Below, piece by piece: positions 2,836-46,388 of a DNA stretch of 64,000 nt (position 1 is the stretch's first letter; every line of letters starts with the position of its first letter). The DNA lies in the IMG/VR virus record IMGVR_UViG_3300042402_002715, positions 1-64,000 of that record; one strand, written 5' to 3'. A model generated the notes under the pieces. The model made no database searches. It was not told where the DNA came from and was given only the letters and a program-made list of their open reading frames with translations. The stretch comes from a virus. The position numbers and the translations under genes are program-made.

Positions 2836-3475
2836 AAATAAATTTTTAGAAATTGTAAAACCAATCACTATGACATCAAAGGAAAGAATTGATTGTTTAT
2901 ATGATTCGTTAGAATATATTAGAACTAATAATATTGACGGTGATTTTGTTGAGTGTGGTGTTTGGAAAGGTGGTAATATTTTAGGGATAATGGAATATTT
3001 AAATTACCACAAAATGTATGATAGAAAAGTTTGGGCTTATGATACATTTTTAGGTATGACAGAACCAGAAAGTGTTGACATAGATTTAAATGGTAATAGT
3101 GCTAAATCAATGTTAGAACACATAATGTGTATATCAACAATAGACGAATTTAAAAAAAATATAGAGAATACTAAATTTCCTGTTGATAATCTTAAAATAA
3201 TAATTGGGGATATTTGTGAAACATTAAAAAATAAAAATAATATCCCGGATAAAATATCTCTTTTAAGGTTGGATACTGATTGGTATAAATCAACAAAAAT
3301 TGAACTTGAGATGTTGTACCCAAATTTAAAAAATGATGGTATTTTAATTGTTGACGATTACGGTCATTGGAGTGGATCAAAAAAAGCAGTAAATGAGTAT
3401 TTTGAAAATAAAAAAATAAACATAAGTCATATTGACTATACAGGAATTAAAATAATTAAAAATGAAAGTATTTGA
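2828..3475 (+). CDS. TylF/MycF-type O-methyltransferase
   Basis: Class I SAM methyltransferase of the macrocin O-methyltransferase (TylF) family: SAM-binding VECGVWKGGN (41-50), the AYDTFLGM strand-2 motif, and the metal-binding LRLDTDWYKST and IVDDYGHWSGS segments in the C-terminal half. Members methylate sugar hydroxyls of glycosylated products. It is the first of four methyltransferase genes in a row, so methylation of a phage- or host-made glycan is likely. Overlaps its neighbours by 8 and 14 nt. Confidence 0.8.
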   Translation: MNKNKFLEIVKPITMTSKERIDCLYDSLEYIRTNNIDGDFVECGVWKGGNILGIMEYLNYHKMYDRKVWAYDTFLGMTEPESVDIDLNGNSAKSMLEHIMCISTIDEFKKNIENTKFPVDNLKIIIGDICETLKNKNNIPDKISLLRLDTDWYKSTKIELEMLYPNLKNDGILIVDDYGHWSGSKKAVNEYFENKKINISHIDYTGIKIIKNESI

Positions 3476-4007
3476 AACTAGGGAAGATTTGTTAAAAAGT
3501 TTAGATTCTAATCTTATAATTTGTGAGATTGGGGTATTTAAAGGCGAATTTTCAAAATTTATATTAGATAATTTATCACCAAAAGAATTACACTTAATTG
3601 ATGTTTTTGAGGGTACTGTTGGTTCTGGAGATAAAGATGGTAATAATGTTGTATTTGTAAATTTAAATGAAGAACTAGTTAGAATAACATCAGAATTTAA
3701 ACCTTTTGAAAACGTTAAAATTCATAAAGGTTTTAGTGGACAAATTTTAAATCAATTTGACGACGAATATTTTGATTTAATTTACATTGATGGTGATCAT
3801 TCGTATTTTGGAGTAAAAAACGATATTAATTTATCATATCAAAAAACCAAACCTAATGGTTTTATTTGCGGACATGATTATGTCTCACCCAGATTTGAGG
3901 GGGTTGTTAGAGCTGTTAATGAATTTTGTAATGAAAAAAATTTAAAAATAGATTATCTCTCAAAAGATGGTTGCCCAACATATTGTATAAAAAAATTAAA
4001 AAATTAA
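3462..4007 (+). CDS. Class I SAM-dependent methyltransferase
   Basis: SAM-binding motif CEIGVFKGEF at 21-30, an acidic LIDVFEGT strand-2 segment near 46, and YIDGDHSYFG (108-117) typical of Methyltransf_24-like enzymes, followed by GFICGHDY. At 181 residues it is a bare catalytic domain. Second of four consecutive methyltransferases; its start overlaps the previous gene by 14 nt. Substrate not predictable; a glycan hydroxyl is inferred from context. Confidence 0.75.
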   Translation: MKVFETREDLLKSLDSNLIICEIGVFKGEFSKFILDNLSPKELHLIDVFEGTVGSGDKDGNNVVFVNLNEELVRITSEFKPFENVKIHKGFSGQILNQFDDEYFDLIYIDGDHSYFGVKNDINLSYQKTKPNGFICGHDYVSPRFEGVVRAVNEFCNEKNLKIDYLSKDGCPTYCIKKLKN

Positions 4008-12761: not shown

Positions 12762-13562
12762 ATGGAAAATAAAATATCAGTAGTACTACCAATTAAAAGT
12801 GGTAAATATGGTTTGTTTGATGAGTATTTCACAAAAGCAATCCAATCAATTAAAAATCAATCATCTTACGTTGAGGAGGTAATCCTTGTTCATACAGATG
12901 AAACAATATTAGATAACTTTCTAGGTGGGTTTGACTTTAGTGGTCTAACAGTAAACAAAGTTTTGTGGACTGAAGAACCTAACTTTGCAAAACAAGTAAA
13001 CAAGGGTGTAAGTGAAGCTAAGAGTGAATGGGTTTCTTTATTAGAGTTTGATGACGAATATTCAAACATTTGGTTTAAAAATGTTGATAAATATATCAAA
13101 CATTATCCAGAAGTGGAATCATTTTTACCTATCGTTGTTGATGTTGATGAAAAAGGAATTTTTGCTGGGTTTACTAATGAGGCAACTTTTGCTGCTAACT
13201 TTACTAGTGATCTTGGTGTATTGTCTAATGACATTTTACAAACATACCAAAACTTTCAAATTTCTGGAATTGTTATTAAAAAAGATGTTTTTCTAAAAAA
13301 TGGTGGTTTTAAATCAAATATCAAATTAACTTTTGGTTATGAGTTCTTTTTGAGAATGACAAACCAATCAGTAAAGTTTTTAACAATTCCAAGGATCGGA
13401 TACAAACATATTAACATGAGAGAAGGCTCAATTTTTTGGAATTATAAAAATGGTAATGATAGATTAAGTGAAGACGAAGTTAAATTTTGGATTGAATCGG
13501 CAAAAAAAGAATATTTATTTACCGCTGAAAGAGAAATAAAATATGAGCCACAAGAAGTTTAA
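12762..13562 (+). CDS. GT2-family glycosyltransferase
   Basis: I choose ATG 12762 (MENKISVVLPIKSG), one base after the preceding stop, over an in-frame ATG 18 nt upstream inside the previous gene. Features: VVLPIKSG opening strand, SLLEFDDEYS acidic metal motif near residue 90, and SGIVIKKDVFLKNGGF in the acceptor half. Its last base forms TAATG with the sigma-factor start. Confidence 0.8.
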   Translation: MENKISVVLPIKSGKYGLFDEYFTKAIQSIKNQSSYVEEVILVHTDETILDNFLGGFDFSGLTVNKVLWTEEPNFAKQVNKGVSEAKSEWVSLLEFDDEYSNIWFKNVDKYIKHYPEVESFLPIVVDVDEKGIFAGFTNEATFAANFTSDLGVLSNDILQTYQNFQISGIVIKKDVFLKNGGFKSNIKLTFGYEFFLRMTNQSVKFLTIPRIGYKHINMREGSIFWNYKNGNDRLSEDEVKFWIESAKKEYLFTAEREIKYEPQEV

Positions 13563-14311
13563 TGGTTGAAAATGAAAATTTAAACACTGAACTTAACGAA
13601 AAGAAAAAGAAAGGAAGAAAACCAACTGTAAAAAAATATTTTGATGAGCCAGAAGAAAATGCCGTAAGATTGTATTTGGGAACTGATTCTAAAGAAGATA
13701 AAAATAAAATTTACAATGAGTTTTTAAGACATCCTTTAGATAAAATGATTTCGTCAATAATAAGACGATACAAGTTATATAGAAAAGATATGGACTTTGA
13801 AGAGGTCCATATGGATACACATTCGTTTTTAATGACAAAGATGGATAAGTTTAAACCATCTAAGGAAAAAAAAGCGTATTCATATTTTGGTACAATATGT
13901 AAAAATTATTTAATGGGTCAAATACAAAAAGACCAGAAAGAGACAAATAGAAAAATTTCTTATGAAGATATTTCAAGTGACATAGATAATATGCCAAACA
14001 TGGTATATTACATTGATGGTGACGAAATAACAACAGAACAAATAATAAGTAAGTTTCTTGACGAATTAAAAATTTCTATGGATGAAAAAGGTGTTACAGA
14101 ACAAGAAGTAAAATTAGGTGAGGCGTTACACGACATATTTCAAAATTACTCAACAATTTTTCAAGAAACTTCAAATAATAATAAGTTCAATAAAAACATA
14201 ATATTATTTGAATTAAGAGAAATGACAAACTTATCAACAAAAGAAATTAGGAACTCATTAAAAAGATATAAAAAAATATATTTTAAAATTGTTAGCGAAT
14301 TAACAAAATAA
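13562..14311 (+). CDS. Late-transcription sigma factor, T4 gp55-like
   Basis: 249 residues: a basic N-terminal stretch, then a sigma-region-2-like block (RHPLDKMISSIIRRYKLYRK, and AYSYFGTICKNYLMGQIQKD) and a C-terminal helix pair resembling the diverged gp55 tail. In T4 gp55 replaces sigma70 and reads late promoters of the form TATAAATA. Here it would serve the rTATTTATw motif found upstream of the virion genes. Located right before the first virion gene. Start is coupled to the previous stop (TAATG). Identification is by family pattern and context. Confidence 0.72.
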   Translation: MVENENLNTELNEKKKKGRKPTVKKYFDEPEENAVRLYLGTDSKEDKNKIYNEFLRHPLDKMISSIIRRYKLYRKDMDFEEVHMDTHSFLMTKMDKFKPSKEKKAYSYFGTICKNYLMGQIQKDQKETNRKISYEDISSDIDNMPNMVYYIDGDEITTEQIISKFLDELKISMDEKGVTEQEVKLGEALHDIFQNYSTIFQETSNNNKFNKNIILFELREMTNLSTKEIRNSLKRYKKIYFKIVSELTK

Positions 14312-19867: not shown

Positions 19868-20485
19868 ATGGCAAATTACCTAATACAATCTTGTGATGGT
19901 CTAACAAGTTTAATTGTTGATACAAACGGAAACACTATAAATATTGGTTCAAAATATTTTTTTACATTTACAGGTGAAACGTTACCAATCTGTGGTGAGG
20001 TGATTAGTGAAGATTCTGGATCAATAAACGAGACATTAAATACCGTAACTTTATATTCTAACTGTTTAGAATGTTTAGAAAGTGAAGGATTTTCTGCGGA
20101 ATTATCATCATGTAATGATGAATTCATTTATCCCCAAATATTAAATGAATTTCCTAACTTACCTATAGTCGGTGAATATTACAGATTTTGCGATCCTTCT
20201 GGTGGTGGACTTTGTTTTTGTTTTGAATTTGTAGGTTTTACATATGAGCCAGGAATACCGGCACTTTATAATGGTGGACCCTTTTTAGATTGTGATTGTC
20301 AAGAACAACCAAGAAATTCAGGAACTGAAAGTTTAATTTGTGAAATTTGTTGTGATTGCGGAGCAACAGGATCAACAGTAAATCAAATAACACCACCTCA
20401 TCCAGTATGGACTGATGGATATGGAACTCAGGTTACACAATTAAACATGATTACATTAGGTGGGCCTAATGGGTTGAATAATTAA
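19868..20485 (+). CDS. Cys-rich tail/adhesion protein, short paralogue
   Basis: 205 residues with repeated CxxC pairs (NCLECLES, CDCQEQP, CEICCDCGA) at about 70-residue spacing. It ends with a module TPPHPVWTDGYGTQVTQLNM plus ITLGGPNGLNN that is nearly identical to the end of the next gene. The conserved C-terminus suggests a shared docking or trimerisation module. Probably exposed on the virion tail. Function inferred from composition and position. Confidence 0.62.
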   Translation: MANYLIQSCDGLTSLIVDTNGNTINIGSKYFFTFTGETLPICGEVISEDSGSINETLNTVTLYSNCLECLESEGFSAELSSCNDEFIYPQILNEFPNLPIVGEYYRFCDPSGGGLCFCFEFVGFTYEPGIPALYNGGPFLDCDCQEQPRNSGTESLICEICCDCGATGSTVNQITPPHPVWTDGYGTQVTQLNMITLGGPNGLNN

Positions 20486-20494
20486 GTACTAAAT

Positions 20495-22519
20495 ATGGCA
20501 GATACAGTAAGATTATCGGGTGAAAGATGTTGTGATAATAGGTTTTTCGATAGAATAGACATTGTTGAACCATTAAGCGCAATTACCACTGGTAGTACAT
20601 TACAACTTCAAAATCAAGAGGGTATATTTTGTATGAATGTATTAACTGTAGAAGTGGGTCCTTATGGTGTAAATCATACTCTACTTGATGTTTTTACAAC
20701 TTGTGAAGAATGTTTAAGTGGAACATCTAATGCGGTACAAATAGAAACTTGTAATGGTCAAAACAATTATTTTGTAGATATTAATTCTTTTACAACACTA
20801 CCAACAATAGGTGATATTTACTATATTAATATAACAAGAAATAATAAACTAGTTGAGGATTGTTTTACTATTGTATGTTATAAAAATACTGAAGAACCAT
20901 TGTTTAATGTCATCTCAATTTCTGACCCATATACAGGATGTACAGAATGTTATGTTAACAACTTTCAAGTATGGGAAGTGATTGATTGTTTTGGTGTAAA
21001 TACATATTATGTTAGTTTACCCCCAAACAATGACTATACTAATTATATAATAACATTTGAATTAGTTTTTGGTGAACAAATTTGTGGTACTGTAACACAA
21101 GTTAATATATTTGCCGAACCAGATGTTACTTTAATCTCAATTTTAGGTTTGTCCACTGAAGTAGAAGGTGGTACCGTTTCTTGTGAAGATTGTTTATCGA
21201 TAAGTAGTGAAAAAAGAATAATTGTTAATTGTTTAAATAGTGACAACACACAAGTAGTATGGGGCTCAGTATTTTATGAGGGTAGTGAAGTAACAAATTT
21301 GTCAACAGAGGATGGTTGTTTTGAGGTTGGTGATTTAACGGAATCGGCAGTCACAATAAACACATTTCTAAATTATGATCCACAACCTAATTGTCAAGAA
21401 TGTATACAATGTGAAGGATTGTATTACACCTACTCAAGTTGTACAAATAGTGGTCCAGTATTCTCTATAGATGAATTTACACCATTACCAACATCTTTAG
21501 GTGATGGTTTTTATGGTCCGTTTACAGGAATAACAGATGGTAATGGTGTTGGTTTTGGTTTATATATCACTGTTTCTGAAGGTCAGATTGTTGGTTCAAC
21601 ATTTGATGTTGGTGTTGGTTACCAAGTTGGTGATACAATTACAATATCATCTGAATTAGTAGGAACAGAATCAGATTTAGTAATCACAGTATCCGAAGTT
21701 ACAACTACAGGAGTAGTTTTTTCTTATCAGTATGTTGAAGATTCTATTGGAAAAAGTTTTTATATTCCTTATTTAGATGATTGTGTAGAGATAACCAACA
21801 TTTCAAACATAGGATCTCCAAATTTTTTCATTTTAAGTTTTGAAGTTTTTGATAATTGTACAAGTTGTCTTCTTAATAATGATTTTTACGTATGGTTAGC
21901 TGAAGAATGTAATACATTAAATCAAAATGTGGTTGTTTTAAATAGTAATTCATTTAATATTGGAGATTATGTAAAAGTTTTAAGAGGATCAACTGAATTT
22001 CAATGTCATAGATTAATTAATCCTTACGTTTACGATACTTCAAATTACACTACGTATTTATCAAATTCTGTAACACCATTTAGTGATTGTGAAACATGTA
22101 ATAGTGGAACTTTAATTGGGGCCTCAATTGCAAAGTGTGGTGGTGGAGGACAACAGTTTGTTAATATTCCAATAAACACATGGAATCAAATGGAGTATTT
22201 AGATTCACAATCTATATTTGTTTTAGAACAATATGGTCAATGTTATGGATTATTAAATGCTTGCCCATTAGAACCTAATTATACGACAATATACCCAATT
22301 GAAACTTATTACAATTGCATCACATGTTTAGACGATAACACAAGATTCCCAAGAAGTGCAAATACTGAAACATTTTTATGTCAAGAAATATGTACATCTG
22401 GTGGCACAACTACAATATCGGTAACACCACCTCATCCAGTATGGACTGACGGTTATGGAACTGAAGTAACTCAATTAAATATGATTACATTAGGTGGAAT
22501 AAATGGTTTAAATAATTAA
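20495..22519 (+). CDS. Cys-rich repeat tail/adhesion protein, long paralogue
   Basis: 674 residues with about eight beta-rich repeats of 70-85 residues, each closing on a CxxC motif (TTCEECLSG, GCTECYVN, SCEDCLSIS, NCQECIQC, NCTSCLLN, DCETCNSG, NCITCLDD). The last ~31 residues (TPPHPVWTDGYGTEVTQLNM and on) repeat the end of the previous gene. Cys pairs could bind metal or form disulfides outside the cell. Likely receptor-binding or decoration fibre. Confidence 0.62.
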   Translation: MADTVRLSGERCCDNRFFDRIDIVEPLSAITTGSTLQLQNQEGIFCMNVLTVEVGPYGVNHTLLDVFTTCEECLSGTSNAVQIETCNGQNNYFVDINSFTTLPTIGDIYYINITRNNKLVEDCFTIVCYKNTEEPLFNVISISDPYTGCTECYVNNFQVWEVIDCFGVNTYYVSLPPNNDYTNYIITFELVFGEQICGTVTQVNIFAEPDVTLISILGLSTEVEGGTVSCEDCLSISSEKRIIVNCLNSDNTQVVWGSVFYEGSEVTNLSTEDGCFEVGDLTESAVTINTFLNYDPQPNCQECIQCEGLYYTYSSCTNSGPVFSIDEFTPLPTSLGDGFYGPFTGITDGNGVGFGLYITVSEGQIVGSTFDVGVGYQVGDTITISSELVGTESDLVITVSEVTTTGVVFSYQYVEDSIGKSFYIPYLDDCVEITNISNIGSPNFFILSFEVFDNCTSCLLNNDFYVWLAEECNTLNQNVVVLNSNSFNIGDYVKVLRGSTEFQCHRLINPYVYDTSNYTTYLSNSVTPFSDCETCNSGTLIGASIAKCGGGGQQFVNIPINTWNQMEYLDSQSIFVLEQYGQCYGLLNACPLEPNYTTIYPIETYYNCITCLDDNTRFPRSANTETFLCQEICTSGGTTTISVTPPHPVWTDGYGTEVTQLNMITLGGINGLNN

Positions 22520-23037: not shown

Positions 23038-23460
23038 ATGATAAAGAGAATAGTTAGATTTTTTAGAAGATTAAAGTTAAGATTTTACTTATTGGGTAAA
23101 AAAGGCAAGATGTTTAAAACATACGAAGAAGAAGTGTCGTCATACGAAAAGACTTGTTTTCAAATTTGTCTTAAGACTATAAAACATCCCTCAACAAAAT
23201 TTATGATTGCCCCAATGTCAAATAAAAGATACATTGAAAATAAAGAAATGGATATTTTTATTACAATGGATTATAGTAGGATTGATTTAACAAATCATGT
23301 CTATCACTATAGTGTAAAACTAAATAATAGAGATTGGGAAAGAATTACATATATCTTTGATGTTGAGACAGAAAAGAGAAGATTGAACTATGAAGATATC
23401 ATTAATTCTCAGATAAAAAATTCTTTACATAATGTATTAGAAAGAATTTCTAATCTCTGA
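23038..23460 (+). CDS. Hypothetical basic protein under a host-type promoter
   Basis: 140 residues, very basic first 30 residues (IKRIVRFFRRLKLRFYLLGK), mixed alpha/beta remainder. Not recognised. Its own strong host-type promoter and terminator make it a monocistronic, probably early gene in the middle of late genes. Its last 24 nt overlap the convergent gene's end. Confidence 0.7.
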   Translation: MIKRIVRFFRRLKLRFYLLGKKGKMFKTYEEEVSSYEKTCFQICLKTIKHPSTKFMIAPMSNKRYIENKEMDIFITMDYSRIDLTNHVYHYSVKLNNRDWERITYIFDVETEKRRLNYEDIINSQIKNSLHNVLERISNL

Positions 23461-24420
23461 TAAAATATTAAAAACAATGGAGTCTACGGACTCCTTTTTT
23501 GTTTTGTAAGAAGTCATTACAGGTTTTTGTCCTTTACCAGATTGTGGATCATTTTTTTCTGCCTTTCTTTTTTGTTGACAGGCGTTTCTTTTTTGTGATA
23601 CCGACATTTTACCCGCAACACCAGCGGCTCTACATTTAGGGTAAGATCCGGAACTAGCATCAGATCTACCACAAGGTGGATGTTTACCATCAACTTTTCT
23701 ACATATATCAACCCATGGTCCTTTTGGTTGTGATGAACCTTTTGGTTTTTTCTTTTTCCCAAACCATACAGCAAGGTCCTCTTTTATTGTATGTACGGGA
23801 TATGTTTCATCTTTTAATTTTTTAAAAAATTCAGGTCCTTTATAATATGTATTACTTTTTTTATTATTTTTTAAATTACTTTTTTTGGAATGATGATTTA
23901 CACTAAAATCAAATTCGTACTCAAAAGGTGCTAAAGTTGTGTTTGGCCATTTTTTTAACCCTATTGAAAACGGTCCATTAAATTCCCCAGCAGTTACTGA
24001 AGTGTCAGCTTCTTTTATTATTTTTTTATTAAAAAGATCACTAACTACTGTATTTTTTTTAATTTCTACCCATTCTTTAATTGGAACAAATTTTAATTTT
24101 TTCCCTGGAGTTTGATTTATAGCATTACCATCTTCATCACTTCTTGTTAAGTTAGGATGATTTTTTAAAAAGATAGAATTTTTTTTTGCTTTTGTTTCAA
24201 TTTTTTTTATTTGTTTTTTTGTTTCATCCATTTTACCATCATAACTGTCATAAGACAATAATGGACTATCGTATTTTGATACAGGAATTGTAAAAGGTGC
24301 CATTTGATTTTTTTCAAACAAACGAATTCCAGGTTGTAAAGGGGCGATATAAGAACCTCTACCACCACCATCAGAAGTAGCTTCTCTTAATATTTTCTTT
24401 ATTAATTTATCGTCTATCAT
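23437..24420 (-). CDS. Head-tagged protein with Cys/Lys-rich phage C-terminal domain
   Basis: 327 residues. Tag MIDDKLIKKILREA has a predicted cleavage after ILRE (residue 13). The C-terminal third (AVWFGKKKKPKGSS, then WVDICRKVDGKHPPCGRSDA and YPKCRAAGVAGKM) is a conserved small basic domain seen in cyanophage-type T4-like proteins, function unknown. A basic, tagged protein is a good candidate for a DNA-associated internal head protein. Late-type motif upstream. Confidence 0.68.
   Translation of the reverse strand: MIDDKLIKKILREATSDGGGRGSYIAPLQPGIRLFEKNQMAPFTIPVSKYDSPLLSYDSYDGKMDETKKQIKKIETKAKKNSIFLKNHPNLTRSDEDGNAINQTPGKKLKFVPIKEWVEIKKNTVVSDLFNKKIIKEADTSVTAGEFNGPFSIGLKKWPNTTLAPFEYEFDFSVNHHSKKSNLKNNKKSNTYYKGPEFFKKLKDETYPVHTIKEDLAVWFGKKKKPKGSSQPKGPWVDICRKVDGKHPPCGRSDASSGSYPKCRAAGVAGKMSVSQKRNACQQKRKAEKNDPQSGKGQKPVMTSYKTKKESVDSIVFNILSEIRNSF
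23479..23500 (+). terminator. Intrinsic terminator with UACG tetraloop
   Basis: Stem GGAGTC/GACTCC closed by TACG (a UNCG-type loop) and followed by T6. It ends the plus-strand gene at 23038 but lies inside the coding end of the convergent minus gene. Confidence 0.85.
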
Positions 24421-24443: not shown

Positions 24444-24659
24444 ATGGAAACTGAAGAAAATAAAGAATTATTTGGTAATTTATTTGGAACTATTGATCTT
24501 TTAAGTGAAGATCATCTTGAAGTAATACTTACAACTATGGATAAAGAACATTCTTTATATTATTTAATTGAGTCAGTTAAGGCTGCACACAAACGAGGTG
24601 CTTTTACAATAGGTGAAGTTGAGATAATCTCAAAGGCTATTAGAACAATATCAAAATAA
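24444..24659 (+). CDS. Small helical hypothetical protein
   Basis: 71 residues, acidic N-terminus, helical (NLFGTIDLLSEDHLEVILTT). Not recognised. Divergent from the tagged gene at 23437-24420, with only 23 nt between the two starts, so the same AT-rich spacer must hold both promoters. Confidence 0.62.
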   Translation: METEENKELFGNLFGTIDLLSEDHLEVILTTMDKEHSLYYLIESVKAAHKRGAFTIGEVEIISKAIRTISK

Positions 24660-24666
24660 CCTTACT

Positions 24667-25725
24667 TTATTTTATTTTTTTTATCATTGTCCCGTCATCA
24701 TATATCTCAATGATTATACCGGTGGTATATATAGGATCAACCTTTTGTCCTAATAGATTTATATAACCTATAATTTTTTTATCTGTAATATCTCTTGTAA
24801 TTACAATTGGACCAAATGTTTCATATTTTCCATCAATATCATATTGTTGTAATCTATAATATGTTAAAGGGTTTAAATTATAGTCAATATACGAATATTT
24901 AATATCTTCCGTAGAATTTTCTGCAGCAATTTTAGTTGTAATTTTTTTCCAATTTTCACCATCTACACTAGACTCTAAATCAAAATGACTTGAGTTCTGT
25001 TCAGACTCGGTAGTCCAATTAATTAAATTAAACTTTGAGTAGGTAACACCATCAAAATAACTTAATTCAACAGGTAATGGACCACCTGTTCTAGTTAATT
25101 CAAAATTATCCATCCACCATTCTTCACCAGCTGAATTTGCTCTAGCAAATATATCAATAGCAATTTGTGTTGTACCCGCAGGTATATTAAGTTGTATTAC
25201 AGAATACCCATCGCCTGTGGATGTTCTATCACCTCCTGCAGATGGTCCTATGGTCGTTAAAGTACCATTGGCAGTTTTAGTATATGCTGTTGAATTATAG
25301 TTCCAAAATGCGTTTGAAGCACCAGTAATACGAAGTTCATTGACATATGAAGTACCACCGTTTGTTGATAATTGCACTGTGATATAATCACCAATATCAA
25401 CTCCCCGTGTTCCTGATGTTGATGTAAAACGGTAAGACCCTAATCTAAATTTGAATTGATAATCATATGCGGCGTCTACAACTAAGTTAGGAAATGAATA
25501 CCAATCTGATTCATATGCCGATGTACCATTACCTGTACCATAGATTACAGCACTAGAGGTTGATGAAACAAAGGCATTTGTATAATAACCGGTTGTAGCA
25601 GCTGGAATCCACCAAACACCTGACCAATCAACATCAAATGTTTCTACATAATCAAATTTATAAAGTGTTTGTGATATTAAATTTGTTGTAACCAACATCA
25701 ATAGGGTTAAAAAAATGTTTTTCAT
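24667..25725 (-). CDS. Secreted protein with T9SS type A sorting domain
   Basis: 352 residues. Signal peptide at 1-19 (MKNIFLTLLMLVTTNLISQ). A beta-sandwich carbohydrate-binding-like region follows (VETFDVDWSGVWW). From ~215, LPVELSYFDGVTYSKFNLINW is the Fn3-like module seen in flavobacterial secreted proteins. The tail (GYINLLGQKV, then GIIIEIYDDGTMIKKIK) is a type A T9SS sorting signal. In the host it would be exported and anchored on the surface. Very unusual between phage head genes. Late-type motif upstream. Confidence 0.8.
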   Translation of the reverse strand: MKNIFLTLLMLVTTNLISQTLYKFDYVETFDVDWSGVWWIPAATTGYYTNAFVSSTSSAVIYGTGNGTSAYESDWYSFPNLVVDAAYDYQFKFRLGSYRFTSTSGTRGVDIGDYITVQLSTNGGTSYVNELRITGASNAFWNYNSTAYTKTANGTLTTIGPSAGGDRTSTGDGYSVIQLNIPAGTTQIAIDIFARANSAGEEWWMDNFELTRTGGPLPVELSYFDGVTYSKFNLINWTTESEQNSSHFDLESSVDGENWKKITTKIAAENSTEDIKYSYIDYNLNPLTYYRLQQYDIDGKYETFGPIVITRDITDKKIIGYINLLGQKVDPIYTTGIIIEIYDDGTMIKKIK

Positions 25726-25740
25726 AATTAAGTATTTTTT

Positions 25741-25752
25741 CTTAATAAATAC
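25741..25752 (-). promoter_or_regulatory. Late-type promoter motif
   Basis: Minus strand reads GTATTTATTAAG 16 nt upstream of the ATG at 25725. Confidence 0.55.
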
Positions 25753-25875: not shown

Positions 25876-27747
25876 TTATCTCAATTCTCTTAAGTCAAAC
25901 GTTCTAACTCCATCAACTGTGATACGTCCGTAGAAACGGTTGTTAACCATTTTCTTAGCATATCTCGTCATTATACCTTTGATAGGTGTAAAGTTGAATG
26001 GGTTATACATTGTAGGTGTTAATTGAAGAGGTACATACGGTGCGTAAATGTAACCAGTGTCAAGTAAAGATGTTCCTTTGTGACCAATCAAGATTTGATT
26101 TGGTGGGAAGTAAGGATCTCTATACACTTGGTAACGACCAGAAAGTGTACCAACTCTTTCAATACCCATGTTGTATTGATCTTGCTCAGGAGACGCGTTA
26201 GATACGTGGAAGTATTCTAAATCATCAAAGATTGCAGAAACCTCAGAAGATACGATGATCCAGTTAGCACCACCTCTAAGTGTAGACTTGTGGATTTGTG
26301 CTGACAATTGGTTAATCGCTGTGATCAAAGTTTGGTTCCAGTCTTTTTGAGTATAAGAAGTTGTTAAACTCAATCTTCTCCATCCGTTGTAATCCCATCT
26401 TAAATTCCAAGCAGCACCTTTTCTCAAGTCTCTCAAGATTTCTCTATCAATTTCAGCAGCAACTTGTTCTGATAATAAAGCTGTTAATTCAGCTTCAGCA
26501 TCAATATTATGGAATGCAGCAACGTCTTGTGCAAGTTCTGGAGACCATTGTGCTCTTAATTTTCTTTCAGTTACAGAAACTGTTACTGATTGAAGATCAA
26601 AAGATACTTCACCAATTTCTTCAGCAAACTCAAGATTTTCGTAAGTTCTATACATAGCTATTAATTCAGTTCCCTCTAAAGCACCTAATGTAGATCCTGT
26701 ATAGCCATCTAAAGACTCAGCGCCACAATCAAAACATGCTGGACAAGAAAGGTCAACTTCTAAATAGATACATCCTGTATTATCACAGATGTCGTAGTAA
26801 GTACCACCATTTCCGTAGTTAGGACTGTTAAAGAAGTTTGTTTGTGTAGGTTGTCCTTGATTGTAATCAACGATACCTTTACCATATTGTTGAGTTACAA
26901 CTCTAAACAATAATGGTTTACCAACTCCGTTAGCGGCATCCCAAACAACATTACAAGTATCAGCAGATGTAGTAATAGGAGATGTTGCAAAAATTCTTAA
27001 ATCAGAAAGAAAAGTTTCACTATCAACTTCGTTACCATCAGGTCCGATTAATTTACCAGCACCAACATTTAAAGTTCTAAAGTCACACATCTTAACGATA
27101 ATTTTTCTTCTGTTACCATTTTCGTAAGCGGCAGCAGCACCAGCGGTATCTAATGAACCGTTATCCCAAATTACCATGTTAGTTTGTGCCGTTACAGCAG
27201 ACCATTTTCCTTTTGAGTAATCAAATAATCCTGGAGGATCTAAACCAGCTTCTGAACCTTCATAAAATAAATCATAAAGATTTTTAGCGTATGCGTTACC
27301 ATTTGGTGGATAACCAGCACCAATTTGTTGTTGGATGTCTGTGCCTGAATTTCCTGGAGATCCTACTGGAGGATAGTGAGTAGCAACATCAGTTGGATTA
27401 GTTTCTTGGTATCCTTGGATACGAGGCACAAAGTAGAACAATTTACCGATAGGTAAGTTCATTGCTTGTACAGAAACGATATCGTTAGCTAACAATTTAG
27501 AGAAAACTCTTCTTACGATAGGGAAAACAACAGTTTCAAATGCTCCGTTAGAACCTTCTGAAGTTGCTTCGTTAATCAAGTGAGAAGCTTGGTTTTCGTA
27601 TAATTGTGCTACGTTCTCTTTTAGGTGGCCTTTAAGACCTTCAAGGAACCCTAATCTGTCCCATTTGTTAATTGTATCTTCTTTGATAACTTTAAGGTGT
27701 TTTAACCCAATGTTACCTACAAGACCTGATTCTAATAATGCTCCCAT
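25876..27747 (-). CDS. Major capsid protein, T4 gp23-like
   Basis: 623 residues. The N-terminal region (LGFLEGLKGHLKENVAQLYE) and AFETVVFPIVRRVFSKLLAN with DIVSVQAMNLPIGK are hallmarks of gp23. Residues 54-61 (ASHLINEA) fit the T4 prohead-protease motif, predicting cleavage after E60 as in T4. It forms the hexamers of the head shell. It is longer than T4 gp23 (521), with an insertion around 150-350 that includes two CxxC pairs. Strong terminator follows; late motif about 40 nt upstream. Confidence 0.95.
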   Translation of the reverse strand: MGALLESGLVGNIGLKHLKVIKEDTINKWDRLGFLEGLKGHLKENVAQLYENQASHLINEATSEGSNGAFETVVFPIVRRVFSKLLANDIVSVQAMNLPIGKLFYFVPRIQGYQETNPTDVATHYPPVGSPGNSGTDIQQQIGAGYPPNGNAYAKNLYDLFYEGSEAGLDPPGLFDYSKGKWSAVTAQTNMVIWDNGSLDTAGAAAAYENGNRRKIIVKMCDFRTLNVGAGKLIGPDGNEVDSETFLSDLRIFATSPITTSADTCNVVWDAANGVGKPLLFRVVTQQYGKGIVDYNQGQPTQTNFFNSPNYGNGGTYYDICDNTGCIYLEVDLSCPACFDCGAESLDGYTGSTLGALEGTELIAMYRTYENLEFAEEIGEVSFDLQSVTVSVTERKLRAQWSPELAQDVAAFHNIDAEAELTALLSEQVAAEIDREILRDLRKGAAWNLRWDYNGWRRLSLTTSYTQKDWNQTLITAINQLSAQIHKSTLRGGANWIIVSSEVSAIFDDLEYFHVSNASPEQDQYNMGIERVGTLSGRYQVYRDPYFPPNQILIGHKGTSLLDTGYIYAPYVPLQLTPTMYNPFNFTPIKGIMTRYAKKMVNNRFYGRITVDGVRTFDLRELR

Positions 27748-27831: not shown

Positions 27832-29430
27832 TTATAGTTTTCCCATCAAATCTTTCATTCTTAAGAACTGTGGATTTTCATATGTTTTAGATTCAATTAA
27901 ACTAACTGCCGATCCAGACGACGCTGTTTTATTTACAGTTCTTTCAATTGACTCATTCAATGAACCACCTTCATTAAGAGAATTATTTGATAATTCAGAC
28001 TTAACAACTCTATAAAGATTTTTTGATTCTTTTAATGTTTCAACATCATCAAATCTTCTCAAGATGTTAATCTTTTCTTGTTTTGTTGTTGAATGCTCAG
28101 TAAACAATCTTGTTGCATAAGCTAAGTTTGAATTAAATACTGCAACTTCATTTAATTTAGTTCTAAACAAATCAAGTGCTTTTCTGTATTCATCATTTTT
28201 AGTTCTTAACTCAATTACTTCTTCTTTAAGATGTCTTGGTGCTGCTTTTGGTTTAGGTAAACCTCTACCAAATGATCTTCCAGAACCGTAAGTTCTTGAA
28301 GCTTCTTTAGTTTCGACTTTTTTACCTTTTTTGATTGGTCTAAATTCACCATCAAGGTTTTCACCATCTTTATACGTAAATTTAGCTTTACCCATTCCAA
28401 CACCTTTTGTTCCTTCTTTTTGTTTAGGCATTTTATAATCAGTAACTTGACCGTATTTGAATTTAGGTCCTTTACCGGTTAACCCTTTAGAACTTTTTTT
28501 GGTTTTTTTAGATTCATAAATGTTTAAATCATCTTCTTCTTCTTCACCTTCAAAGTCCATCATGTCCATATCATCCATTTCCATCATGTCCATATCATCC
28601 ATTTCCATCATGTCCATATCATCCATTTCCATCATGTCCATATCATTCATTTCTATTTCATACATGATACCCTCAACCTCTTCGCTATCCTCCATATCTT
28701 CTTCATCTTCAAAAGAAAAATCTTCATCTTCTTCGTCTTCATATCCAAAGTCCATGTCTTCATCTTCTTCGTCTTCATATCCAAAGTCCATGTCTTCATC
28801 TTCTTCGTCTTCATATCCAAAGTCCATGTCTTCATCTTCTTCGTCTTCATATCCAAAGTCCATGTCTTCATCTTCTTCAAATTCGTTTAGTTCAGTACCG
28901 TCTTCATACATTTCCTCAAGTTCTGAGTCAAATGCTGTTTCATCAAAATTTTCCATAGATTCATTTAATTTAATGATGTATTCATCGTCATCATCTGTTA
29001 ATGTGATAATATTGTTATCTCTTGTAACTACAACGCCATCATTATCACCCATGGCTTTAAATACTCGGATTACTTCAGCATCAGAGGCATCTCTCATGTC
29101 TATTGTTTCATCTTCACCAGTTTCCATTCCAGCCAAACTTTCATCACCCATCATTTCTGGGTCCTCAAGTGCAGGTTCTGCCGCTACCATATTAGGATCC
29201 ATTTCCATTCCAGTCTCGTCAGACATCATAGCCGGGTCTTCTGTAGCAACATCTTCTGGGTTCATTTCTGGTTCTATAACCTCTTCTTGTTCCATAAGAG
29301 ATTCTTTTACTAGTGAATTAATTTCTTTCCTCATTGTTGATGAAAGTATTCCTTGTGCATTTTTTTTAAGAGATTCTTCCAAATTCTTTATTTGGAACAA
29401 TGCGTCTTCTATCATGTTTTTTTCTCCCAT
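27832..29430 (-). CDS. Prohead core scaffolding protein, gp22-like
   Basis: 532 residues. The N-terminus and the C-terminal third (KAAPRHLKEEVIELRTKNDE, TRLFTEHSTTKQEKINILRR) are helical like T4 gp22. The middle is extremely acidic with two tandem repeats: about four copies of a 12-residue unit (MDFGYEDEEDED) and 3-4 copies of an 8-residue unit (MDMMEMDD). The scaffold directs capsid assembly and is then cut up by the protease. Position between protease and capsid genes matches T4 21-22-23. Confidence 0.85.
   Translation of the reverse strand: MGEKNMIEDALFQIKNLEESLKKNAQGILSSTMRKEINSLVKESLMEQEEVIEPEMNPEDVATEDPAMMSDETGMEMDPNMVAAEPALEDPEMMGDESLAGMETGEDETIDMRDASDAEVIRVFKAMGDNDGVVVTRDNNIITLTDDDDEYIIKLNESMENFDETAFDSELEEMYEDGTELNEFEEDEDMDFGYEDEEDEDMDFGYEDEEDEDMDFGYEDEEDEDMDFGYEDEEDEDFSFEDEEDMEDSEEVEGIMYEIEMNDMDMMEMDDMDMMEMDDMDMMEMDDMDMMDFEGEEEEDDLNIYESKKTKKSSKGLTGKGPKFKYGQVTDYKMPKQKEGTKGVGMGKAKFTYKDGENLDGEFRPIKKGKKVETKEASRTYGSGRSFGRGLPKPKAAPRHLKEEVIELRTKNDEYRKALDLFRTKLNEVAVFNSNLAYATRLFTEHSTTKQEKINILRRFDDVETLKESKNLYRVVKSELSNNSLNEGGSLNESIERTVNKTASSGSAVSLIESKTYENPQFLRMKDLMGKL
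28557..28645 (-). repeat. 24-bp tandem repeat in the scaffold gene
   Basis: Three and a half near-perfect copies of a 24-bp unit encode the MDMMEMDD peptide repeat. Confidence 0.85.
28725..28870 (-). repeat. 36-bp tandem repeat in the scaffold gene
   Basis: Four near-identical 36-bp units encode the MDFGYEDEEDED peptide repeat. Confidence 0.88.
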
Positions 29431-29446
29431 TGATATTTTTCTTTAC

Positions 29447-29458
29447 AATATAAATATT
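29447..29458 (-). promoter_or_regulatory. Late-type promoter motif
   Basis: Minus strand reads AATATTTATATT 17 nt upstream of the scaffold ATG. Confidence 0.6.
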
Positions 29459-29489
29459 GGTAGTTGGAGAAAAATTCGGTGTAAAATAA

Positions 29490-29515
29490 AAAAGGGGACA
29501 AAATTGCCCCCTTTT
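29490..29515 (-). terminator. Terminator after the 71-residue gene
   Basis: AAAAGGGG/CCCC(C)TTTT hairpin with a 9-nt loop lies downstream of the stop at 29535. Confidence 0.8.
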
Positions 29516-29534
29516 ATAAAAAAATAATTTTTAA

Positions 29535-43206: not shown

Positions 43207-43222
43207 CAATAAAAAAAAGTGT

Positions 43223-43230
43223 TATATTTG
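43223..43230 (+). promoter_or_regulatory. Host-type -7 element (TATATTTG)
   Basis: TATATTTG sits 24 nt upstream of the CAP-protein ATG. No clear -33 TTTG is present. Confidence 0.6.
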
Positions 43231-43254
43231 TATTATAATTTTAAAATATTTAAT

Positions 43255-43764
43255 ATGAAATCTTTAGTCACAATTTTCACAATTTTTATTTCCGCAATTT
43301 GTTTTACTCAAACAAAACATGATGATTTAGATGAAATGTTTATTAAAAGAAACAAATCAGAATATAACAAAGTTAATTTTGATAGTTTGAGTAATTCATT
43401 GGTCAATATTATAAACCAATATAGAATTAAAAATAAATTAAGTAAATTTTCTGTAGATACTAATTTAATTAATTATTCTAAAAATTGGGGTAAATCTTTG
43501 TGTGATAAAAACACACTTATTCACTCAGATTTTACAGGAACAGATATTATTGGTGAAAACATTTATGGACTTTTTACTTATGGTACGTTTATCTGTAATG
43601 TCGAATACTTCAATAAACAACCACAAATAATTTTTGATTCTTGGAGAACATCAACTGGTCATAATGAAACTATGTTAAATGTTAGGGCAACTAAAATTGG
43701 TTTGTTTATCTATACTGAGTATAAAGTCAAATTTAAATTAGTAACCGTAATGGTTATAGAATAA
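43255..43764 (+). CDS. Secreted CAP-domain (SCP/PR1-like) protein
   Basis: 169 residues from ATG 43255, chosen because it follows a host-type promoter and gives a clean signal peptide (MKSLVTIFTIFISAICFTQ). CAP pattern: NYSKNWGKSLCDKNTLIHSD, GENIYG and DSWRTSTGHNETMLN. CAP proteins are extracellular and often bind lipids or act on envelopes. A phage-secreted CAP protein is unexpected. Monocistronic, with its own promoter and terminator. Confidence 0.82.
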   Translation: MKSLVTIFTIFISAICFTQTKHDDLDEMFIKRNKSEYNKVNFDSLSNSLVNIINQYRIKNKLSKFSVDTNLINYSKNWGKSLCDKNTLIHSDFTGTDIIGENIYGLFTYGTFICNVEYFNKQPQIIFDSWRTSTGHNETMLNVRATKIGLFIYTEYKVKFKLVTVMVIE

Positions 43765-44324: not shown

Positions 44325-46388
44325 ATGGCAATAGAATTTGTAGATGACAACGACAAAAACAAAAAGAAAACTGATGGTGGAACACCTGTTTTAGATAACT
44401 TCAGTAAAGATTTAATCAAACAAGCTCAATTAGGAAAATTAGATCCTGTAATTGGTAGGGAAAAAGAAATTTTAAGAATTGCTCAAGTCCTATCAAGAAG
44501 AAAGAAAAATAACCCAATCATTATTGGTGAACCAGGTGCTGGAAAAACGGCAATAGTTGAGGGTCTTGCAATGATGATTCATAGCGGTGAATGCCCTAAA
44601 AATTTATCAGATAAAAGAATTGTATCATTAGACATTAATTCAATTGTTGCTGGAACAAAATATAGAGGACAATTTGAAGAAAGAATGAAAGTTATAATTG
44701 AGGAGTTACAAAATAACCCAAATATTATAATTTTTATTGATGAAATTCATACAATGGTTGGTGCTGGCAATAGTTCGGGTTCACTTGATGCGTCAAACAT
44801 ATTCAAACCGGCATTATCAAGAGGTGAAATTCAGTGTATTGGTGCTACAACTCTTGACGAATATAGAAAACACTTTGAGAAAGATGGTGCTCTAGAAAGA
44901 AGATTCCAAAAAATTATTGTTGATCCGTCAACAAAACAAGAAACATTTGAGATTCTTAAATTAAGTAAAGAAAAATATGAAGATCATCACAAGGTTAATT
45001 ACACCGATGAAGCTCTTTGGTTATGTGTCGAATTAGCTGACCGGTATATTACAGATAGAGAATTTCCAGATAAAGCATTTGATATTTTAGATGAAGTTGG
45101 GTCAAGGATGCAAATTGATATTAAACTTCCGGAACATATTGAAAAATTAAAACAGGAAGCTCAAGACATCAAAAAGGAAAAAGCTGATGTTATTAAAAAA
45201 CAAAAATATGAAATGGCTGCTGAATTAAGAGACCGTGAAAAAAATATTTTAACTAACCTTGAGGATGAAAAAAAGAAATTTGAGGAAGAGTTAAAAACTA
45301 GTAAAAGAGGTATTCCAGAAGAGTTAATTTACGAGGTTGTCTCAAACATGACAAAGATACCAGTAAGTAAAATTAATGTGGATGAAAAAAACTCACTTGT
45401 TAATTTAGAAGACACTCTAAATGCTAACGTTATTGGTCAAGAAGAAGCCGTTAAAAAAATATCAAAGTCAATTAGAAGGAATAGGGTCGGTATTAAAGAT
45501 CCAAATAGACCAATAGGTTCATTTATATTCCTTGGGTCAACCGGTGTTGGTAAGACGTTTTTAGCTAAAAAACTGGCAAAAGAAATTTTTGGTAGTGAAG
45601 ATAGTTTGATTCGTGTTGATATGTCCGAATATCAGGAAAAACACACCATATCAAGACTAATAGGTTCTCCTCCGGGATATGTTGGTCACGAAGAGGGTGG
45701 ACAATTGACAGAACAAGTAAAAAATAAACCATATTCAGTGATTTTATTTGATGAGGTAGAAAAGGCAAATAAAGAAATTTTTGGAACTTTACTTCAAATG
45801 TTAGATGATGGACATATGACAGATGGGTTAGGTAGAAAGATCAATTTTAAAAATTGTTTAATTATTATGACATCAAATATTGGTGTTAGAAAAGTTCAAG
45901 ATTTTGGAAGTGGTGTTGGGTTTAAAACAAACAACAACAGTGAAGCTGTTCAAGAGGAATATAAAAGAGATGTTTTGAAAAAAGAATTAAGTAAGTTTTT
46001 TGCTCCAGAATTTTTAAATAGAATTGATGATATTGTAATCTTTAATTCTTTGAAAAAAGAACATGTTGATAAGATTGTTAAACTTGAGATTGATAAATTA
46101 ATTGATAGATTAAAATCAATGAAATACAATTTTACATATGAACAATCGGTAATTGAAAAAATTGCAAAGGTTGGGTTTGATGAATTGTTTGGAGCAAGAC
46201 CAATCAAAAGAGCAATCCAGGATAAAATAGAAGATCTTATTTCAGAAAAAATATTAACAAATGAGGTTGTAGAGGAAAAACAATATATGTTATTTGTTAA
46301 AGGAGAAGGTGATGAGCAAACCATAGAACTAGAAGAAAGGGTTGTTCAAGAACCAAAGAAAAAGGGAAGAAAGAAAAAGGAGGATTAA
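44325..46388 (+). CDS. ClpC-like AAA+ unfoldase
   Basis: 687 residues, lacking the Clp N-domain. D1: GEPGAGKT (68-75) and IIIFIDEIHTMVGAG. Middle: UVR-like KKQKYEMAAELRDREK, as in ClpC/ClpE. D2: GSTGVGKT (404-411), RVDMSEYQEKH and FDEVEKA. After D2, GSGVGFKTN places V531-G532-F533 where ClpC carries its ClpP-docking VGF loop. It could therefore team with host ClpP. No phage ClpP in the window. Confidence 0.92.
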   Translation: MAIEFVDDNDKNKKKTDGGTPVLDNFSKDLIKQAQLGKLDPVIGREKEILRIAQVLSRRKKNNPIIIGEPGAGKTAIVEGLAMMIHSGECPKNLSDKRIVSLDINSIVAGTKYRGQFEERMKVIIEELQNNPNIIIFIDEIHTMVGAGNSSGSLDASNIFKPALSRGEIQCIGATTLDEYRKHFEKDGALERRFQKIIVDPSTKQETFEILKLSKEKYEDHHKVNYTDEALWLCVELADRYITDREFPDKAFDILDEVGSRMQIDIKLPEHIEKLKQEAQDIKKEKADVIKKQKYEMAAELRDREKNILTNLEDEKKKFEEELKTSKRGIPEELIYEVVSNMTKIPVSKINVDEKNSLVNLEDTLNANVIGQEEAVKKISKSIRRNRVGIKDPNRPIGSFIFLGSTGVGKTFLAKKLAKEIFGSEDSLIRVDMSEYQEKHTISRLIGSPPGYVGHEEGGQLTEQVKNKPYSVILFDEVEKANKEIFGTLLQMLDDGHMTDGLGRKINFKNCLIIMTSNIGVRKVQDFGSGVGFKTNNNSEAVQEEYKRDVLKKELSKFFAPEFLNRIDDIVIFNSLKKEHVDKIVKLEIDKLIDRLKSMKYNFTYEQSVIEKIAKVGFDELFGARPIKRAIQDKIEDLISEKILTNEVVEEKQYMLFVKGEGDEQTIELEERVVQEPKKKGRKKKED

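Follow-up and report, generated by a model that had tools for sequence, protein, structure and literature searches.

A probable T9SS cargo gene with a short C-terminal tail behind the capsid gene of a T4-like Bacteroidota phage

We found that a T4-like phage carries, directly behind its major capsid gene, an accessory gene whose product is likely to be a host-derived protein exported by the type IX secretion system (T9SS) of the host. The window, a stretch of 64,000 nucleotides from a 64.5-kb IMG/VR record, holds this gene at positions 24667 to 25725 on the minus strand, where it encodes a 352-aa protein composed of a signal peptide, an N-terminal domain (N-domain), an LPVEL module and a short sorting-type tail. 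The sequence-only reading had proposed the same open reading frame and surroundings of virion genes, and both were borne out: the gene directly follows gp23, the T4-like major capsid protein gene (25876 to 27747, minus strand; PF07068, E = 4e-73), and is part of a T4-like block to which the gp20 portal, an S77 prohead protease and a terminase also belong. The proposed export through the host's T9SS stands by inference from the host-type tail, its replacement of a canonical CTD and the swapping of domains among homologues, whereas the assignment of the tail to the type A sorting domains does not.

Architecture and evolution of the window gene

The N-terminus of the window protein reads MKNIFLTLLMLVTTNLIS followed by Q, in agreement with the Bacteroidetes Q-rule for signal peptides (PMC5837995). 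Cleavage is predicted before Q19, which is invariant in 12 homologues. The claimed signal peptide is thereby supported: residues 1 to 18 (25672 to 25725, minus strand) have the sequence of a Sec/SPI signal peptide, a feature of T9SS cargo in the broad sense.

The signal peptide is followed by a beta-rich domain (about residues 20 to 214; 25084 to 25668, minus strand), delimited by structure models and by homologues in hosts. Two structure models reached mean pLDDT values of 64.6 and 74.3, and the domain's fold neighbours gave weak MAM/jelly-roll-like and Fn3 hints with low TM-scores, so that a MAM/jelly-roll-like fold is assigned at low confidence. No Pfam family matched the N-domain above its cut-off, and a PDB sequence search with it returned no match. 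F5_F8_type_C (E = 0.012, Pfam) and PNGaseA (E = 0.021, partial) both fell below the cut-off and were rejected as identities of the domain. An enzymatic N-domain, acting for example on surface glycans, would nevertheless be compatible with T9SS export and would compete only on the protein's role, which would then be to process host polysaccharide for release or spread. Four of 14 members match PNGaseA weakly (best E = 0.0055); this finding, weak structural matches to glycosidase accessory domains and the glycoside hydrolase and endoglucanase among Cryophage cargo (PMC7468147) all point in this direction. However, the PNGaseA matches are partial and below the cut-off, and among the other slot occupants that we tested, the domains are of binding type, none of them clearly catalytic; we consider an enzyme improbable.

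The third part had been described as an LPVELSYF Fn3-like module, and a profile does locate an LPVEL beta-sandwich at about residues 216 to 310 (24796 to 25080, minus strand), which was modelled with a pLDDT of about 88 and has Fn3 domains as its structural neighbours. PHROGs contained no family for the window gene. Among named phage records, the search with the window protein returned only four matches, all from uncultured huge phages. In LR756502.1 and LR745206.1, two uncultured phages of more than 600 kb, LPVEL modules are matched and the match extends through the short-tail end.

The gene is under purifying selection, with dN/dS well below 1 in both of its parts (about 0.05–0.2 in the N-domain and about 0.2–0.4 in the C-terminal part). 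In a DNA comparison with the homologue at locus L002, identity is 97.8% over the signal peptide and N-domain and about 81% over the LPVEL part; long runs of 98–100% identity begin just upstream of the start codon. This difference suggests that the 5′ part of the gene recombined recently.

A short tail in the place of a canonical CTD

The window protein ends in a tail of about 38–39 aa (24670 to 24786, minus strand), defined by a model and by profiles. The previously noted ending, KKIIGYINLLGQKV...DGTMIKKIK, was recovered, and a profile built from host tails only found a single match among 823 six-frame stretches of the window, with E = 7e-13; its presence in the window gene is therefore not due to chance. 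Three strands are predicted in the structure model (residues 318–322, 337–342 and 347–351). Both glycines, one in LLGQ and one before the second strand, are invariant, and the end is basic; the GxY position reads GII, as compared with the published description of Prevotella motifs B, D and E.

The sequence-only reading had called this a type A sorting tail, an assignment that we reject. TIGR04183 (NCBIfam, cut-off 23 bits) did not match the window protein, nor did this or other T9SS models match its 12 homologues, and a Pfam search of the window protein returned no sorting domain. The tail is missing the YPNP-type first strand and is about half of the usual 70–80 aa. When the short tails were compared with 11 long host CTDs as profiles, the probabilities were 0.6–8%, giving no link between them.

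The short tail nevertheless stands in for a canonical CTD, as judged by its identical position after the LPVEL module and by its exchange with true CTDs among homologues. Two homologues, L035 in a Crocinitomicaceae MAG (44.6 bits) and L030 in a viral contig (31.4 bits), share the N-domain and LPVEL module with the window protein but end in a true TIGR04183 domain, above the 23-bit cut-off. A search of 399 genomes of the order turned up related N-domains in 24 of them, both on proteins with long CTDs (L243, L261 and L269) and on proteins with short tails (L263, L265 and L266). In the family to which the Crocinitomicaceae MAG G001 belongs, an LPVEL module has one of two endings behind it: the short tail, with 0–5 residues after that, or a CTD of 69–89 residues. 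We searched 60 genomes of this family with a profile of the LPVEL module plus tail, and collected 30 short tails (a few without an LPVEL module) and 11 long ones from the host ORFs examined. Profiles of the phage and host short tails matched each other at 99.4% probability. Taken together, these comparisons identify the window tail, at the level of sequence, as a sorting-type domain at the extreme C-terminus that is common to secreted host proteins, and the best reading of the window protein is that it originated in a host.

A profile search found the short tail in 34 of 60 genomes of the family, 185 of 299 of the order and 7 of 296 drawn from the phylum; because the family's own tails had served as its seed, these counts favour relatives of the family and would miss more distant short tails. 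The gene had been put forward as evidence for the host phylum, and the clue holds and becomes narrower, the tail being frequent in a single order, to which Crocinitomicaceae belong, but rare among the genomes drawn from the phylum. SprA was present in 59 of the 60 family genomes, including every genome with a short tail, in what is presumed to be the host family.

The same module and tail are widespread in viruses, where at least 400 stretches matched the LPVEL-tail profile. We kept the best 80 of 400, which yielded 79 newly fetched loci. All 79 contained an ORF ending in the short tail, which the search itself favoured, and 72 of these ORFs had a signal-peptide-like start, nearly all of them with Gln at the expected place.

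These results bear on a rival explanation in which the Sec-exported protein would stay in the periplasm, or be freed only at lysis, and the tail would be a leftover of host ancestry or serve another purpose, with the T9SS uninvolved. The failure of TIGR04183 and Pfam to recognise the tail, and its lack of a profile link to long CTDs, are what such a protein would predict. However, the tail occupies the exact C-terminus in all 79 of the best viral ORFs with varied N-terminal parts (in a search that favoured such tails), is exchanged with true CTDs among homologues, and in the family draw is accompanied by SprA in every genome that has it. We therefore regard a periplasmic protein as unlikely, and favour export by the T9SS.

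A variable slot behind gp23

Searches with the window gene returned homologues in 13 and then 22 viral loci, in overlapping sets. In T4-like relatives, gp23 flanks the gene on one side, as the left border of the slot, and on the other side are homologues of two genes that are conserved in synteny: a 71-aa gene (24444 to 24659, plus strand), which forms the right border in many relatives, and a 327-aa gene beyond it (23437 to 24420, minus strand). Other homologues occur in different phage contexts with no gp23 homologue nearby.

We characterized the slot in a sample anchored on the major capsid protein, which comprised 52 loci with both borders, the window included; some contigs are near-duplicates and the shares are rough. 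A secreted ORF with the short tail occupied the slot in 16 loci and the slot was empty in 14 (53–203 bp, no ORF), while 7 held only an ORF of about 227 aa and 15 held other genes. Because the slot is either filled with a short-tail ORF or empty in so many relatives, the gene is accessory: by its sequence context, it is an optional (moron) gene of a T4-like phage, preceded by a promoter motif of its own and placed in a slot whose content varies. Other slot occupants carry GEVED, CUB, fn3, GBD_T9SS_assoc and Ig_7 domains. The ORF of about 227 aa resembles an HNH endonuclease by motif, and Pfam gave no match for the one tested. Large ORFs also occupy the slot at locus L013 (1377 to 5365), and their GNAT, Mom-like and restriction-like matches are weak; the other strand there (3180 to 3665) encodes a protein that by eye resembles a tail tube.

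A late-type motif had also been claimed, and was confirmed by counting: of the 54 window genes, 17 have TATTTAT in the 60 nt before them, where 1.4 would be expected, and the motif lies 26 nt upstream of the window gene's ATG (25745 to 25751, minus strand). Across the 17 genes, the spacing of (A)TATTTAT to the ATG is about 11–51 nt. The sequence TATTTATA is the reverse complement of the T4 late box TATAAATA. By eye, the gene at 13562 to 14311 may encode a late sigma factor; a Pfam search with it returned no match.

Its position beside gp23 and its late motif, together with the Fn3-like module, would also suit a virion decoration protein, comparable to the Ig/Fn3 domains on other phage capsids. 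Yet the signal peptide obeys the Q-rule, the slot is empty in 14 of 52 related phages, homologues are found in phages with no gp23 homologue nearby, and the host homologues look secreted. The signal peptide and the empty slots rule out decoration as the main reading, and we consider it very improbable. Mis-assembly of host sequence into a phage contig would account for the host-like architecture, but the gene recurs at this slot in many viral contigs that are independent of one another, which leaves this explanation a negligible probability.

Other features of the window were observed alongside. The CAP-domain protein at 43219 to 43764 (plus strand; PF00188, E = 2.9e-10) has a Q-rule-like signal peptide, lies on the strand opposite to most of its neighbours and is probably a second exported phage protein. 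The neighbouring proteins at 19868 to 20485 and 20495 to 22519 (plus strand) end in a common C-terminus, TPPHPVWTDGYGTxVTQLNMITLGGxNGLNN, and are perhaps tail-fibre or adhesin paralogues. The gene at 44325 to 46388 (plus strand) encodes a ClpA/ClpB-like AAA+ ATPase (PF07724, E = 6e-65). A protein in the scaffold position (27832 to 29430, minus strand) contains tandem acidic repeats (EDEEDEDMDFGY, MEMDDMDM), of which the Ser-rich antisense ORF at 28520 to 29527 is probably an artefact.

Proposed mechanism and relation to known systems

Several steps would bring the product of this accessory gene, which is probably host-derived and occupies a variable capsid-adjacent position in T4-like Bacteroidota phages, to the surface of the infected cell. 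The gene would be transcribed late from its own motif, and its product would cross the inner membrane via Sec and be cut before Gln19. The short tail would then act as a minimal CTD, recognised by the host T9SS with its SprA translocon and a PorV-type shuttle, and the beta-domain protein would be moved over the outer membrane and either anchored or released. Its most likely job would be to alter the infected-cell surface late in infection as a masking or adhesive protein, for example by hiding receptors from superinfecting phages and keeping progeny from re-adsorbing. A functional analogue for this proposed role is Llp of phage T5, a phage-made envelope protein that blocks the receptor; it is a lipoprotein and does not involve the T9SS. 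Masking or exclusion is a tentative guess at the role, and adhesion or aggregation is an equally tentative one.

A broader proposal, which we hold at somewhat less than even confidence, is that T4-like phages of one Bacteroidota order maintain, next to the capsid gene, a slot for interchangeable cargo that carries a single, as yet unmodelled minimal T9SS signal; late in infection, each phage variant would then dress its host cell in a different exported protein. The findings offer a likely destination for the large set of phage proteins that match the module, and describe a sorting-type tail that is short and overlooked by TIGR04183 and Pfam in hosts and phages alike. For T4-like phages whose bacteria are uncultured, they supply a clue to the host order, and they provide a minimal candidate T9SS signal that is easily tested.

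T9SS cargo has already been described in a phage (Cryophage, 2020), and so have short CTDs (in Prevotella, 2025). Judged by the open-access literature searched, which may lack earlier reports, three elements are new: a short tail that neither TIGR04183 nor Pfam covers, the distribution of this tail at the level of an order, and a capsid-adjacent slot that recurs among T4-like phages. Cryophage also encodes proteins with T9SS sorting tails that vary between phage variants of the Bacteroidetes, for which T9SS hijacking and superinfection exclusion were proposed (Bellas et al. 2020, PMC7468147). That phage measures 76 kb and joins type A sorting domains to enzyme or PA14 domains, whereas the present phage is T4-like, its tail is short and not recognised by TIGR04183, and the slot behind gp23 is recurrent. 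The crAss-BACON ORFs are likewise Bacteroidetes phage genes near head genes with a T9SS sorting domain, but belong to another phage group and have other domains (de Jonge et al. 2019, PMC6949934). Host-surface modification was also proposed for Porphyromonas phage proteins with Q-rule signal peptides, for which no T9SS tail is mentioned (PMC10367356).

Compared with TIGR04183/Por_Secre_tail, which has true members on L035 and L030, the window tail occupies the same C-terminal place after LPVEL modules, but differs in its lack of a match and of a YPNP strand and in its roughly halved length. An experimental precedent is provided by the short CTDs of Prevotella intermedia, which are 40–55 aa long with one three-stranded sheet predicted, and which were shown to support cleavage and glycosylation (Ye et al. 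2025, PMC11969387). Both are C-terminal sequences well below 70 aa, predicted to be three-stranded, with conserved glycines and a basic end; the Prevotella CTDs come from another Bacteroidota lineage and have recognisable motifs B, D and E, whereas the window tail, compared with them by description, is about 38 aa.
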